This document shows, one piece after another, positions 2,628 through 28,725 of a stretch of 43,208 bases of DNA. Numbering within the stretch: the stretch's first letter is position 1; each line of letters opens with the position of its first letter. The stretch is from positions 1 through 43,208 of IMG/VR virus record IMGVR_UViG_3300042402_002860; one strand, written 5' to 3'. Under the pieces are notes generated by a model. The model was not told the origin of the DNA. It saw only the letters and a program-made list of their open reading frames with translations, and searched no databases. The translations under genes and the position numbers were made by a program. The stretch is from a virus.

Positions 2628-2651
2628 AAATAGGCTCCGGAGAGCCTATTT
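2628..2651. terminator. hairpin terminator behind the tmRNA coding piece
   Basis: A perfect 10-bp inverted repeat AAATAGGCTC / GAGCCTATTT with loop CGGA. On the minus strand the stem is followed by a short T-run (TTTTC), so it can end the tmRNA transcript. Confidence 0.75.
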
Positions 2652-2665
2652 GGTGGTTTCTGTTG

Positions 2666-2728
2666 CTAGGCATATCCTGCCCCGGTTAGCCTTCTCAGGC
2701 CACCATTAGAAACTGTTCGTCGTTTGCA
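2666..2728 (-). other. proteolysis-tag reading frame of the tmRNA
   Basis: From resume codon GCA (2726-2728) the frame reads ANDEQFLMVG then LRRLTGAGYA and stops at TAG (2666-2668). The ANDE start matches bacterial tags. The tag is longer than the usual 8-15 residues and ends GYA rather than LAA or VAA, so its fate with host proteases may differ. The A-rich run before the resume codon is as in bacterial tmRNA. Confidence 0.65.
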
Positions 2729-2834
2729 TTTACGTTTTTTGCTTCTACGACCGGGTCTCCCCAATCCTACGGGTTCTGCTTTCCCGTGCTGTCCACTCTG
2801 TTACTTGTCGCCCTGTCGATACTATTCAGGCCCA

Positions 2835-2939
2835 TCAAAAAGACTCGTGTTCTCCGTTTACAAAATCAACAGTATAAAGAGCGGCATCTTCCATATCGGT
2901 AAATGCTTCTTTTAACCAACTAACAATTTTGTGAAACAT
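2835..2939 (-). CDS. 34-aa small ORF inside the tmRNA intervening segment
   Basis: The ORF begins MFHKIVSWLKEAF and ends NGEHESF. AAGGA lies six bases before the ATG, between the CCA of the acceptor piece and the ORF. Its stop codon ends two bases before the GGGCCTG start of the coding piece, so the ORF almost exactly fills the segment that would be cut out during tmRNA maturation. The N-terminal half could form an amphipathic helix. Function unknown; it may be translated from the tmRNA precursor. Confidence 0.5.
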   Translation of the reverse strand: MFHKIVSWLKEAFTDMEDAALYTVDFVNGEHESF

Positions 2940-3023
2940 ACAATTCCTTATGGTGGACCTGGGGGAGAACTGCCCTCCCCGTCCAGAACACCGTTCTCTC
3001 GGCTTCATACAGCAATAACTTAC

Positions 3024-3052
3024 AGTATATATTTATTTGATGTGGTTGTCAA
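3024..3052 (-). promoter_or_regulatory. near-consensus sigma70-type promoter of the tmRNA
   Basis: Minus strand: TTGACA, 17 bases, TATACT. The predicted start at about 3017 is three bases before the first tmRNA helix. It lies just behind the amidoligase stop codon. Confidence 0.8.
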
Positions 3053-3069
3053 TGACCTGTTACACCAAT

Positions 3070-5007
3070 TTATTGTGCTCGGGGTTTGGTGCGTTGGTGT
3101 TCGGCCCACAATCGTTTCACAAATGCCATGGTTCTGGGATCCGTTGCTGGCAGGGTGCTTTTGGTGTAGTAGGCCAAACCTGAATCTTCCCAACCACCGT
3201 GTTTTTGGATGGTCACTGTGTTGCGTGGTAGTTGCATCTTAGAGAATACTTCAACTTCTTGTAGATGTTGCGGAACAACCAACATGGAAAAGAAGCTGTC
3301 TGCAGGTGCTCGGGCAATCAGTTTGCGCTGATAGTCTGTCAGTGCCTTGTTGGCCAACACAGATCTTGTGGCATCGCCGCCTCCGGTCACTGCCACACTG
3401 TTGTTGGCAATGGCACTATAACCATCCATGGCGTCCAGGGCAAGATTCAATGGTGTTCTTTTCTTGCCAAGTCGCATGACATCCAGTTGTATCACTGGCA
3501 TGCCTTGGGTACGTATAGTCTGTAACATTGTGGGCACTGTGCTTGGTGAAGCAGCAGGGCTGGTGCCGGCCAATTTGGCCAACTTGGTTTGATATTCCTG
3601 TGCATACAGTGTGGGATCAGAGGCAATGATCATGGCACGAATAAAACGTCCCACCACATTGAAAACGCTGGTGTAATTTTGCAAGTAGTCGCCGCCGGCA
3701 TGCCGGAAACTGATGTATTTGCCGTTGTCGCTGATTGATGCTGTGTGAGCACCTGTGGCAGCTTGTGCAATTCGTTGCAGTGATTTGACGTCCAGGGTTG
3801 TTTGTGTTTTTGGTTGTCCCAGTACACCTGGTTTTTTTGCTGTCTTGGTTTTCAACACTGGAGAGCCACTGGCCACCCGCCCGGCAATGGACTGCTGGCT
3901 GCTCACTGCATAGTCGTTGTTTTGTCGGCCAAACTGCTGTAGCACATGTTGATCACCAGTAAACACAGCCAGTTTCAACACGTCTAATCGGTCGGGTATG
4001 CTGACATTGATGTGCAGGCCAGTGGAACTGTTGGTATACAGGTTCAATTGTGCCGCCATGGCATAAAAACGTTTTAGTGCGTCCACGGCTTGTGCAGCCG
4101 GCAGCGGAGGACTTACTATCTCTGCCGTGGCATCGTAGTCGTTGTTGGGATCTAAACTACCATCAGGTTCGATGTACCAGTCAGTGAGATTTTTACCACG
4201 TTGGTGATATCTTTGAAATATGTGTACCGGTGCACCCATGGTTTGCTCAATCATGGGTTTTAAGAACTCAGCAGCCCGTTGGTATTCAGGATCTTGATCA
4301 TACTCATCGTCTTTATACACTGACAAGTCCAACAGATCATAGGCCTGATTGGCATCATAATCAAACAACTGGTTGAAATTCTGTTCAATGGATTTCAATG
4401 GCTGGCCCAGTGCATATTCCAGCAGACCAGGCCAATCTTGGCGACTGGCATCCATCAATGCTCGTCCTGCACGTTCTGCGGCATTGCCATTGTTGTTGGT
4501 GTAAACTATTCGTCCCATGCGTTCAGCAAAATTTCTTTGCATGACGCGATCATAACCAGGATCAGTTTTCTTCAGCCCCTGCGCTTTGGCCAGGTTTTTG
4601 GCATCTTGCATGGCACGATCACGGTATTTTGCCCGTTGTTTTTCAGGAATTTGATTGTACAACTGTTGAAGTTGGTTCACAAATTCATCTTGATAACTGC
4701 TGTATGCTTCAGCCATGGTGGCAAAATTGCCAACCGGTTGTCGCAAACGAAACACCTGATCCCAGGCTTCAGGTGTGACTTGCTGGAAATAGATATCACT
4801 TAACACATTGTATGACCGTAACATTTCAGCAACTTGATCTTTGGTATGTGCTGTGTTTTTGCTTTGAGCAAATGTGGACTGGGGTATACCCACCTCAAAT
4901 TCAAATCCTACCAACACGCCCCGGGCTTGCCCTTGCTCAATGGCCTGGGCAAACTCAGCAGGATTCATGGCTGCTTCGTCAACGGGGTGGAATTCGCTAA
5001 ATCTCAT
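3070..5007 (-). CDS. amidoligase-like protein with capsid-targeting-like N-terminus, 645 aa
   Basis: Hallmarks of the amidoligase (ATP-grasp-unrelated, glutamine-synthetase-fold) family appear in order: VGFEFEVGIP (33-42), WYIEPDGSL (277-285), EIVSPPL (296-302), STGLHINVS (328-336) and an arginine-bearing ISFRHAGGDY (432-441). Such enzymes join carboxylates to amines; the substrate here is unknown. The first residues MRFSEFHPVDE/AAM resemble the short capsid-targeting leader of T4 internal proteins, cut after Glu, so the enzyme may be packaged and injected. A helical insert (about 100-260) is family-atypical. The family is inferred from motifs only. There is no ribosome binding site; GCTAAATA ends five bases before the ATG. 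Confidence 0.7.
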   Translation of the reverse strand: MRFSEFHPVDEAAMNPAEFAQAIEQGQARGVLVGFEFEVGIPQSTFAQSKNTAHTKDQVAEMLRSYNVLSDIYFQQVTPEAWDQVFRLRQPVGNFATMAEAYSSYQDEFVNQLQQLYNQIPEKQRAKYRDRAMQDAKNLAKAQGLKKTDPGYDRVMQRNFAERMGRIVYTNNNGNAAERAGRALMDASRQDWPGLLEYALGQPLKSIEQNFNQLFDYDANQAYDLLDLSVYKDDEYDQDPEYQRAAEFLKPMIEQTMGAPVHIFQRYHQRGKNLTDWYIEPDGSLDPNNDYDATAEIVSPPLPAAQAVDALKRFYAMAAQLNLYTNSSTGLHINVSIPDRLDVLKLAVFTGDQHVLQQFGRQNNDYAVSSQQSIAGRVASGSPVLKTKTAKKPGVLGQPKTQTTLDVKSLQRIAQAATGAHTASISDNGKYISFRHAGGDYLQNYTSVFNVVGRFIRAMIIASDPTLYAQEYQTKLAKLAGTSPAASPSTVPTMLQTIRTQGMPVIQLDVMRLGKKRTPLNLALDAMDGYSAIANNSVAVTGGGDATRSVLANKALTDYQRKLIARAPADSFFSMLVVPQHLQEVEVFSKMQLPRNTVTIQKHGGWEDSGLAYYTKSTLPATDPRTMAFVKRLWAEHQRTKPRAQ

Positions 5008-26191: not shown

Positions 26192-27658
26192 TTAATCAAA
26201 CAGTACGTTGAACTGTGTACGTGCGTTTTTGGCCTTTTTGCCTTTGTGACCACGTGTGCCCACAATCTCCATCCAATAGCGATCATAATGTTCAATAATG
26301 GCTTCTGACTCTGCACGGGTAGGGGCAGCAAATATAGCCTCTACAATGTCTGCAAACTTGGCATGGTCACCGTTTTCATACCACATCATGTAAGGCCATG
26401 TACCAGCATCAAAGTCACGATTAGCACGTTGCACTGCTTCAATGTGCGTCCAAACATTGTGACCCATCAACAGTGCATAACTGAAACTGTCCCATGATGT
26501 TTTGCCTTCCTTACCATTTTTATTTAGATCGCCGGGTTTGTAGATGCAAATATCTTTCAATGTCAACATTTGGCTTATGGGAGATTCATCAAAACAAGGC
26601 ACCCAACCTTCTGACACAGCAGCCTGTCCATAAGGTCGTGTGTCTGTGCTGTACTTTTTGTCGTCCACAATGGGACTCATTCTGTAACTCCACTTTTGAT
26701 TGTGTGTGGTGTCAATTTGATAGTACACCTGACCATTGGCTGTGGCGAGGAATGGGCTGGCACAATCAAAGGAGATAGTAAATTCGGGGTTAACGTATTT
26801 TCTAACTGCTCTTTGAATCACGGTGAGTAGCACAGCCCATTCCAACTTTGATGTGCCCAAGAAGTGCATCCAGTCATGCACACCTGGTTGCAACAATCCA
26901 TCATATTTGAGTGCGATCAATCGTTTGAGAATCAAATGCACATCACACATGTTCTGACCACCCATGGCCCAACCATCAAAGTGTGTGTCTGGGTATTTTT
27001 GTGGATCACAATACTCTTTCATGAGTTGGTACCATGACTCTGCTGATGTGTGATTGTCACCTTGCAACACATTCAAGAATCGAGCACCACCATTGGCTTT
27101 GCCCCGGCGATGCTTCATGAAGTATTCGTTGTTGAATTTGGTGGCAGCAACTGCTTCTTCCAAGGTCTTGATACCACAAGCATTGCCGGCGTTTTTGTCA
27201 TGTATGACCCATGTGGGAATGTCAAGAATCATGCCATAGTCAGCAAGATTATCCAACCATTTCAGCACAGAACTACGTTTCTTTTCAGCTTTGGGACAAC
27301 CCGAGTTGGCTTTCCAATCACCTTCCCACAAGCCCTTGGCAATCTGAAATCCCCCTGAGTCACCCAACAAAAATGTGCCAGGTTCACGACTGCGAACCAT
27401 GTCCTCAGACCAGTCTTGTTTGGTCAAGTCCAAGTTAGCATGTCCTGCTGAATACAAACTCCACCGGTATGGAAACAATGCTTTTTGACTGTCAAGCCAA
27501 TTCAGTTGTTCCATGTCAGTGAGACCTGCGGGAAAACGTGCAGGATCCACATACTGTTCGTTGCGTTGTCTGCCCACAAACGTGGCATAGAAACCTGATA
27601 TAGCCGGCAAGAACACGGCGTAATCAAGTTGTTTAGCGGTCAAATTATCTTGGGTCAT
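26192..27658 (-). CDS. dpdA: DpdA-type DNA-guanine transglycosylase (TGT-like), 488 aa
   Basis: Exchanges guanine in DNA for a 7-deazaguanine base, by homology to queuine tRNA transglycosylase. FLLGDSGGFQIAKG (about 96-109) holds the TGT-like DSGGFQ active site; FLNVLQGDNH and GWAMGGQN are further substrate-pocket blocks; ISFDCASPFLAT supplies the likely nucleophile aspartate. No C-x-C-x2-C-x-H zinc site is seen. FLPAISGFYATFVGR at the start fits phage DpdA. Together with folE, queD and queE this gives a deazaguanine route. Its first 37 bases occur again at 28720-28756. Confidence 0.85.
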   Translation of the reverse strand: MTQDNLTAKQLDYAVFLPAISGFYATFVGRQRNEQYVDPARFPAGLTDMEQLNWLDSQKALFPYRWSLYSAGHANLDLTKQDWSEDMVRSREPGTFLLGDSGGFQIAKGLWEGDWKANSGCPKAEKKRSSVLKWLDNLADYGMILDIPTWVIHDKNAGNACGIKTLEEAVAATKFNNEYFMKHRRGKANGGARFLNVLQGDNHTSAESWYQLMKEYCDPQKYPDTHFDGWAMGGQNMCDVHLILKRLIALKYDGLLQPGVHDWMHFLGTSKLEWAVLLTVIQRAVRKYVNPEFTISFDCASPFLATANGQVYYQIDTTHNQKWSYRMSPIVDDKKYSTDTRPYGQAAVSEGWVPCFDESPISQMLTLKDICIYKPGDLNKNGKEGKTSWDSFSYALLMGHNVWTHIEAVQRANRDFDAGTWPYMMWYENGDHAKFADIVEAIFAAPTRAESEAIIEHYDRYWMEIVGTRGHKGKKAKNARTQFNVLFD

Positions 27659-28725
27659 TTAAATTTGTTAAAATAAGGACTTATATTCAAATTTGTATTT
27701 TGATTATAAGTGTTACGAATAATTGTTAAAAATTCCAAATGCTCGGGATGAGTTGGGTTGGCAATGTCATGATCAAGATACGTCCCGTTAGCAATGGTAT
27801 ATGCGTCTGGATTTTTTACAGGTTGAGAATTCCAAGTTCCCCAATCAAAGAGTGGTTGTAAACTTCCAATAAAATTCAACCGACGGCATAACTCATCAAA
27901 CGCAGCAATATCTTTAAAATTTGTTTTTTGCACAATAAACATTAGTTTAACTTGGGTTGAACCTCGATTTTCTGACATCCATTCAAGATTTTCTAACAAT
28001 ATCTTCCACTTGCCCGGTCTTCTCACTTGTTCGTAAACATTAGCAGACCCAGCATCAACACTTATTGCAATAGACTTCATGTGTGATCGTATTGGTGAAT
28101 TTGGGATTATTTTTTTTATCAAAAGTCCGTTGGTACTAATGCTAAATGATTGTCTAGGTGTGGGATGATAGTTTAGTAAAAGATGTCTAGTAATATGGCT
28201 AGCCAGTGCATCCCCACTGACACCAAGTGCTATTTCTACTGGGTGTTCAAATTCTTCTAATAACCGCATGATATGATTCATGTTTGTTATTTTATTTTCA
28301 AATTCTGGTCCAGAATCTAGCATGTGCAATTCTCTTCGGCAACTAGGGCATGCAAGATTGCAACTGTCATCGATACCAATGGCAATATTATATTTTACTT
28401 GTTGGTTACTTTGGTGTACAATCCCGCAATGTGTTACTGCACACCATGTAAATTTATTTTCCGTAACATCACTTTGAATCATTTTAGCGATAGGAGAATT
28501 CCAAATATCAGATAACTTATTAAAGTCTGAAATTTTACCTACCGGGATTGGTAACCACGCAGAGCAACTGCACACAAAACAATCTAAGTTGTTATCAATG
28601 CTTAGATGAGTAAACGGAACTTTACAAGTATTTGTGATTGGATGCTCATAAGTACGGCCACGTTGGATTGACTTTAAAGTAAATTTTAATCCAGGAGTTA
28701 ATATTACTTTCTGAAAATCAATCAT
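27655..28725 (-). CDS. radical SAM/SPASM-domain protein, 356 aa
   Basis: CNLACPSCRREL is the C-x3-C-x2-C cluster motif, placed unusually late (about 122-129) behind an N-terminal cysteine-rich region (NLDCFVCSCSAW, WCAVTHCGIV). GVSGDALA and ISTNGLLI are SAM-binding parts, SVDAGSANVYEQVR the conserved D-G/A strand. Auxiliary clusters seem to lie at the N-terminus instead of the C-terminus. AT-rich compared with dpdA. Its ATG lies inside the duplicated dpdA start, so it was probably inserted here. Confidence 0.75.
   Translation of the reverse strand: MIDFQKVILTPGLKFTLKSIQRGRTYEHPITNTCKVPFTHLSIDNNLDCFVCSCSAWLPIPVGKISDFNKLSDIWNSPIAKMIQSDVTENKFTWCAVTHCGIVHQSNQQVKYNIAIGIDDSCNLACPSCRRELHMLDSGPEFENKITNMNHIMRLLEEFEHPVEIALGVSGDALASHITRHLLLNYHPTPRQSFSISTNGLLIKKIIPNSPIRSHMKSIAISVDAGSANVYEQVRRPGKWKILLENLEWMSENRGSTQVKLMFIVQKTNFKDIAAFDELCRRLNFIGSLQPLFDWGTWNSQPVKNPDAYTIANGTYLDHDIANPTHPEHLEFLTIIRNTYNQNTNLNISPYFNKFK

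Follow-up and report, generated by a model that had tools for sequence, protein, structure and literature searches.

In the phage-encoded permuted tmRNA gene described here, a small protein gene is probably nested in the intervening segment. The window analysed here, the whole 43,208-nucleotide stretch of IMG/VR record IMGVR_UViG_3300042402_002860, is a virus contig with a phage-type DNA polymerase and tRNAs, and the tmRNA gene is encoded on its minus strand (Table 1). Permuted tmRNAs in phages are known; apparently new are the protein genes nested in the segment, across many related phages. Phages can in this way keep protein genes in the discarded spacer of a split RNA gene. Such loci also provide a testable case in which one transcript would act both as mRNA and as stable-RNA precursor, with a stop codon that doubles as the structural partner of the CCA end.

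Table 1. Elements of the permuted tmRNA unit, with positions in the window.
Feature	Position	Strand	Remarks
Promoter, sigma-70-type, TTGACA-17-TATACT	3024..3052	-	11/12 matches; same promoter upstream of the tmRNA in L003 and L004
Acceptor piece (tRNA-like 3' part), encoded CCA at its end	2951..3014	-	RF04321 match begins at model position 1
T arm: 6-bp stem GGGGAG/CTCCCC, loop GGCAGTT	2962..2980	-	Alphaproteobacterial-type loop
Intervening segment, 117 nt	2834..2950	-	Expected to be absent from the mature tmRNA, by family knowledge
Shine-Dalgarno AAGGA, directly 3' of CCA	2945..2949	-	Also 5' strand of the base stem; position conserved in the class
Nested ORF, 34 aa, MFHKIVSWLKEAFTDMEDAALYTVDFVNGEHESF	2835..2939	-	UGA stop 1 nt before the coding piece
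Conserved TGAT	2834..2837	-	Complementary to ACCA; contains the UGA stop of the ORF
Coding piece as modelled: GGGCCTG, TCGACAGGG core, tag region	2695..2833	-	RF04321
Tag frame ANDEQFLMVA-stop	2695..2727	-	Resume codon and stop present
Terminator-like hairpin, 10-bp stem	2628..2651	-	Inside the RF01850 match, which extends to 2625

The assignment of the element as a phage-encoded permuted tmRNA is supported by covariance models, acceptor pairing, the tag and conservation in sibling phages. RF04321 (tmRNA_permuted) matches 3014-2695 of the minus strand over the entire model (positions 1-213 of 213) with 97.8 bits (E 6e-18, gathering threshold 47), and a marginal match to RF01850 (beta_tmRNA) extends over 3066-2625 of the same strand (86.8 bits, E 6.5e-25, gathering threshold 84). 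Both matches cover the two halves in permuted order; ARAGORN, run on the window, missed the tmRNA. The acceptor strands GGGCCTG (2833-2827) and CAGGTCC (2961-2955) form a fully paired 7-bp stem that includes G3·U70, the identity pair for AlaRS, and A73 (2954) and the CCA end (2953-2951) are gene-encoded on the same strand. The sibling contigs L003 and L004, found via a neighbouring 645-aa protein (79% identical), have a permuted tmRNA at the same place. As judged from the family, the window tmRNA would mature into two pieces, and the coding piece probably runs on to about 2640.

Much of what an initial annotation had proposed from the sequence alone is borne out by these data, namely a two-piece gene with the acceptor half before the coding half, acceptor strands that pair over all seven positions and a near-consensus promoter. 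The coding half carries TCGACAGGG after GGGCCTG, as it had stated, and the resume region GCAAACGACGAA begins at 2727. It had suggested covariance models and ARAGORN as checks, and the former gave the hits described above. The proposed terminator stands as a symmetric, terminator-like 10-bp stem that ends the unit; it was called on the plus strand by the terminator scan, and the T-run on the minus strand is short. The features that had been singled out as notable fared less well. The tag, thought to be long, has 10 residues (ANDEQFLMVA), the usual length, and the same tag, LMVA end included, is present in the independent contig L037. The T-loop GGCAGTT, regarded as non-canonical, is a variant of the normal GGCAGTA/GGCGGTA loop of nearly all alphaproteobacterial permuted tmRNAs parsed, and loops of the GGCAGTA type are also found in many other phage tmRNAs; its novelty was rejected on these grounds. 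The only unusual feature of the T arm is a stem that is one pair longer than usual. With GGCAGTT in place of a UUCGANN-type loop, a betaproteobacterial-type feature, and a match to RF01850, the window tmRNA is a mosaic. The location in a phage is not novel either, since permuted tmRNAs in phages have already been published (PMC9004378). The real surprise, which the initial annotation overlooked, is the probable protein-coding frame that fills the intervening segment.

This segment reads TAAGGAATTGT-ATG...TGA-T, with a Shine-Dalgarno (SD) sequence right after the CCA end, a start codon at offset 11 and a 34-codon frame that stops with UGA at position -1. The frame thereby belongs to a class that we define by an SD right after CCA, a start offset of 9-18 and a frame of at least 60% of the segment. 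The window ORF is shared with L003 and L042 and is present in part in L034; no further relatives were found among the listed matches, which contain two distinct full sequences that are one amino-acid change apart. The window ORF thus has one distinct full-length relative, and it is the architecture that suggests that the frame is coding. No family match was found for the 34-aa protein, and a comparison of the locus DNA with annotated phages gave short chance matches only.

Viral permuted tmRNAs were collected with two patterns blind to segment content and one aimed at an SD plus ATG. The contigs in IMG/VR are redundant, and the 304 viral tmRNAs are the matches listed, of a total of at least 304. 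For the counts in the blind samples, SD-led frames of at least 18 codons and at least 60% of the segment were scored in distinct segments. Such frames are present in 10 of the 78 distinct segments of the first sample (shuffles: mean 1.7, maximum 7; shuffles with the ends kept: mean 2.3, maximum 6) and in 7 of the 60 of the second (shuffles: mean about 1, maximum 4), that is, in roughly one-eighth of the segments, where chance alone would yield one or two per sample. The nest is optional, since the majority of viral intervening segments lack an ORF. The ORF-bearing segments fall into 41 protein families among the matches listed. In 23 independent gapless pairs from 13 of these families, substitutions at codon positions 1, 2 and 3 number 77, 48 and 165. 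The reading frame has a pN/pS of 0.24 and 0 stops, whereas the two alternative frames have pN/pS values of 1.13 and 1.39 and contain 111 and 117 stops. This pattern argues for protein-level purifying selection on the class. Rfam models recognise L191, L180, L112, L113, L132 and L260 as permuted tmRNAs across the nested gene.

The nested ORF of L191 encodes a complete 84-aa thioredoxin (PF00085, E 4e-21), that of L037 a CxxCxxCC protein (PF03692, E 1.3e-6) and that in the 531-nt segment of L084 an HNH-like protein just below the family cut-off (E 8e-4). Many other nested proteins are one-helix membrane peptides or zinc-ribbon-like, as judged by eye. Twelve families also have relatives outside the segment, mostly near the tmRNA in sibling phages, and these ordinary genes are independent proof that the nested frames are genes. 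The L191 thioredoxin, for instance, is 68% identical to an ordinary gene in L043, and the L139 family corresponds to gp85 (59%) of Melnitz phages, which are in culture and whose annotation places gp85 immediately ahead of ssrA. A relative of the L140 protein in L063 is encoded outside the tmRNA and retains the terminal TCTTTATGAT of the segment, as if it had moved out together with the segment end. The thioredoxin gene of L043 (231-476, minus strand) overlaps with its stop codon the 5' end of the tmRNA acceptor half.

In 32 bacterial permuted tmRNAs the segment has a length of 4-58 nt (median 26.5), and none of these reads like the viral ORF segments; these host controls are mainly alphaproteobacterial, with betaproteobacteria represented by the RF01850 consensus and its segment of about 30 nt. 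The viral segments, in contrast, have a median of about 82 nt and a maximum of 531 nt among those listed in the collection of 304. When 84,980 bacterial and archaeal genomes were searched with one strict nested-ORF pattern, none of the 21 matches was a tmRNA. ARAGORN found no tRNAs inside the intervening segments, and the non-coding segments of ten loci matched no known RNA family. L002 and L094 have long non-coding segments that are similar to each other and match no Rfam family.

The ends of the viral segments pair with each other over a mean of 9.7 bp (ORF-bearing) and 9.9 bp (other segments), compared with 6.4 and 4.1 bp, respectively, when ends are re-paired at random; the base stem of the window segment is short, with 5 bp. 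TGAT forms the last four bases in 236 of the 304 listed viral segments. As it is complementary to ACCA (A-U, C·A, C-G, A-U), the acceptor stem, the CCA end and the segment stem could form one long helix. The conserved UGA is the ORF stop in 19 of the 41 families; in other families the frame ends at -12 or continues into the coding half. In eight of the 19 the protein has the C-terminus ..VSL, three residues dictated by the stem sequence GTTTCTTTA-TGA, and unrelated proteins are in this way tied to one RNA structure.

The segments are also exchanged between tmRNA genes. Between the window and L003 the segment is identical at 115 of 117 positions (98%), whereas identity is 81-82% in the acceptor half, the coding half and the neighbouring gene, and L004 has a different ORF in the segment at the same locus. 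Near-identical segments are combined with different T arms in several pairs, for example L097/L362 (96% over 284 nt). Judged by these alignments, the segment behaves as an exchangeable cassette. Given the many unrelated small genes that it carries, the site probably offers a tolerant place for cargo behind an existing promoter and does not itself take part in trans-translation. Some non-coding segments, too, are shared by dissimilar tmRNA backbones (e.g. L068/L123/L104).

We hypothesize that transcription from the single promoter would give a precursor consisting of the acceptor half, the nested mRNA and the coding half. The segment would be cut out by tRNA-processing enzymes, the two halves would join to form the working tmRNA, and the nested frame would be translated from either the precursor or the excised piece. 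Both the SD and the stop codon belong to the base stem, so that translation is probably in competition with maturation of the tmRNA. More tentatively, and with rather low probability, these loci might be dual genes, in which one transcript provides a protein mRNA and a ribosome-rescue RNA, cargo translation and maturation are mutually exclusive due to the SD and stop in the processing stem, and small genes are exchanged as cassettes at the segment. A control device is rather unlikely. In such a device, a ribosome stopping at the UGA opposite the CCA end would open the base stem and mask the 5' terminus of the coding half; translation would thereby tune maturation, and the peptide would matter little. 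The SD and stop are indeed located in a conserved base stem, and in 19 of the 41 families the stop has an invariant place, one base ahead of the coding half; however, the peptides, a complete thioredoxin included, are under strong amino-acid constraint, the frames of other families end at -12 or extend into the coding half, and most segments have no ORF at all.

The scarcity of ORFs among viral segments would also fit a permuted phage tmRNA of the usual kind whose long segment is non-coding, the window frame being due to chance. In shuffled segments of the window's composition the frame stays open 7% of the time, and its relatives are too few for a selection test. We consider this explanation unlikely, as the window frame matches the class architecture exactly (an SD following CCA, the ATG at offset 11, the UGA at -1) and the class is under selection at the protein level and includes known domains. 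A homing-type mobile element, disseminated by endonucleases encoded in the segment and carrying the other ORFs as passengers, is very improbable. While the HNH-like protein of L084 and the near-identical segments in different tmRNA backbones would agree with this, it is the single endonuclease-like ORF among the listed segments, and homologous recombination across the conserved tmRNA halves accounts for the exchange. Least credible of all is that the window tmRNA is a decaying copy with an altered T arm, an LMVA tag and a changed hairpin. Its T arm, core hairpin and tag end do differ from those of L003 and L004, but the T-loop is of a functional alphaproteobacterial kind, the stems are compensated, G3·U70 and CCA are retained, and the LMVA tag recurs in L037. 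A nested protein gene hence remains our preferred reading of the segment.

With known permuted tmRNAs (RF04321, RF01850, RF01849) the window element shares the order of the halves, acceptor pairing, CCA, tag, tRNA domain and whole-model covariance hits. It differs from the bacterial ones sampled in that its segment is longer (117 nt, with relatives reaching 531 nt, versus 4-58 nt) and probably protein-coding. Excision of the segment by tRNA-processing enzymes is given as established in the available sections of PMC11915505, which also place a repeat element and one tRNA-Ala inside such segments and describe no protein gene there. More generally, the papers found in the open-licence literature cover phage permuted tmRNAs and the tRNA-Ala in one segment, and none of them reports a nested protein gene. 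A close published case is the permuted tmRNA of the cultured Methylophilales phage Melnitz (MZ577097; PMC9004378), whose 142-nt segment, as examined in this analysis, likewise contains an SD-led ORF. The annotation mentions only a tmRNA across this segment, an example of coding space overlooked by annotation pipelines, and gp85, a relative of another nested ORF, is a separate gene just upstream. The glutamine riboswitch published for the 3' end of the Melnitz tmRNA was reproduced here (L459, 1899-1947). The same sections of PMC11915505 describe tmRNA genes with a group I intron that encodes a LAGLIDADG homing endonuclease, a further case of a protein gene within a tmRNA gene, lodged in a portion that the mature RNA lacks. 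That element is a self-splicing intron in the T-loop of another gene form, whereas the host in the window is the permutation spacer between CCA and the coding half; cmscan matched no intron family at the window locus, where the T-loop lacks a group I intron, and the cargo of the viral class is diverse.

Directly upstream of the window tmRNA (3070-5007, minus strand) is the gene for the 645-aa protein, which has no PHROG match and a distant relative in the Agrobacterium jumbo phage Atu_ph07 (32% over 36%). A radical SAM domain protein (PHROG hits) is encoded at 27655-28725 of the same strand. In phage DSS3_MAL1 (MN602268; L462), a GOLLD RNA (269-732, Rfam 160.5 bits) is located just upstream of the permuted tmRNA.
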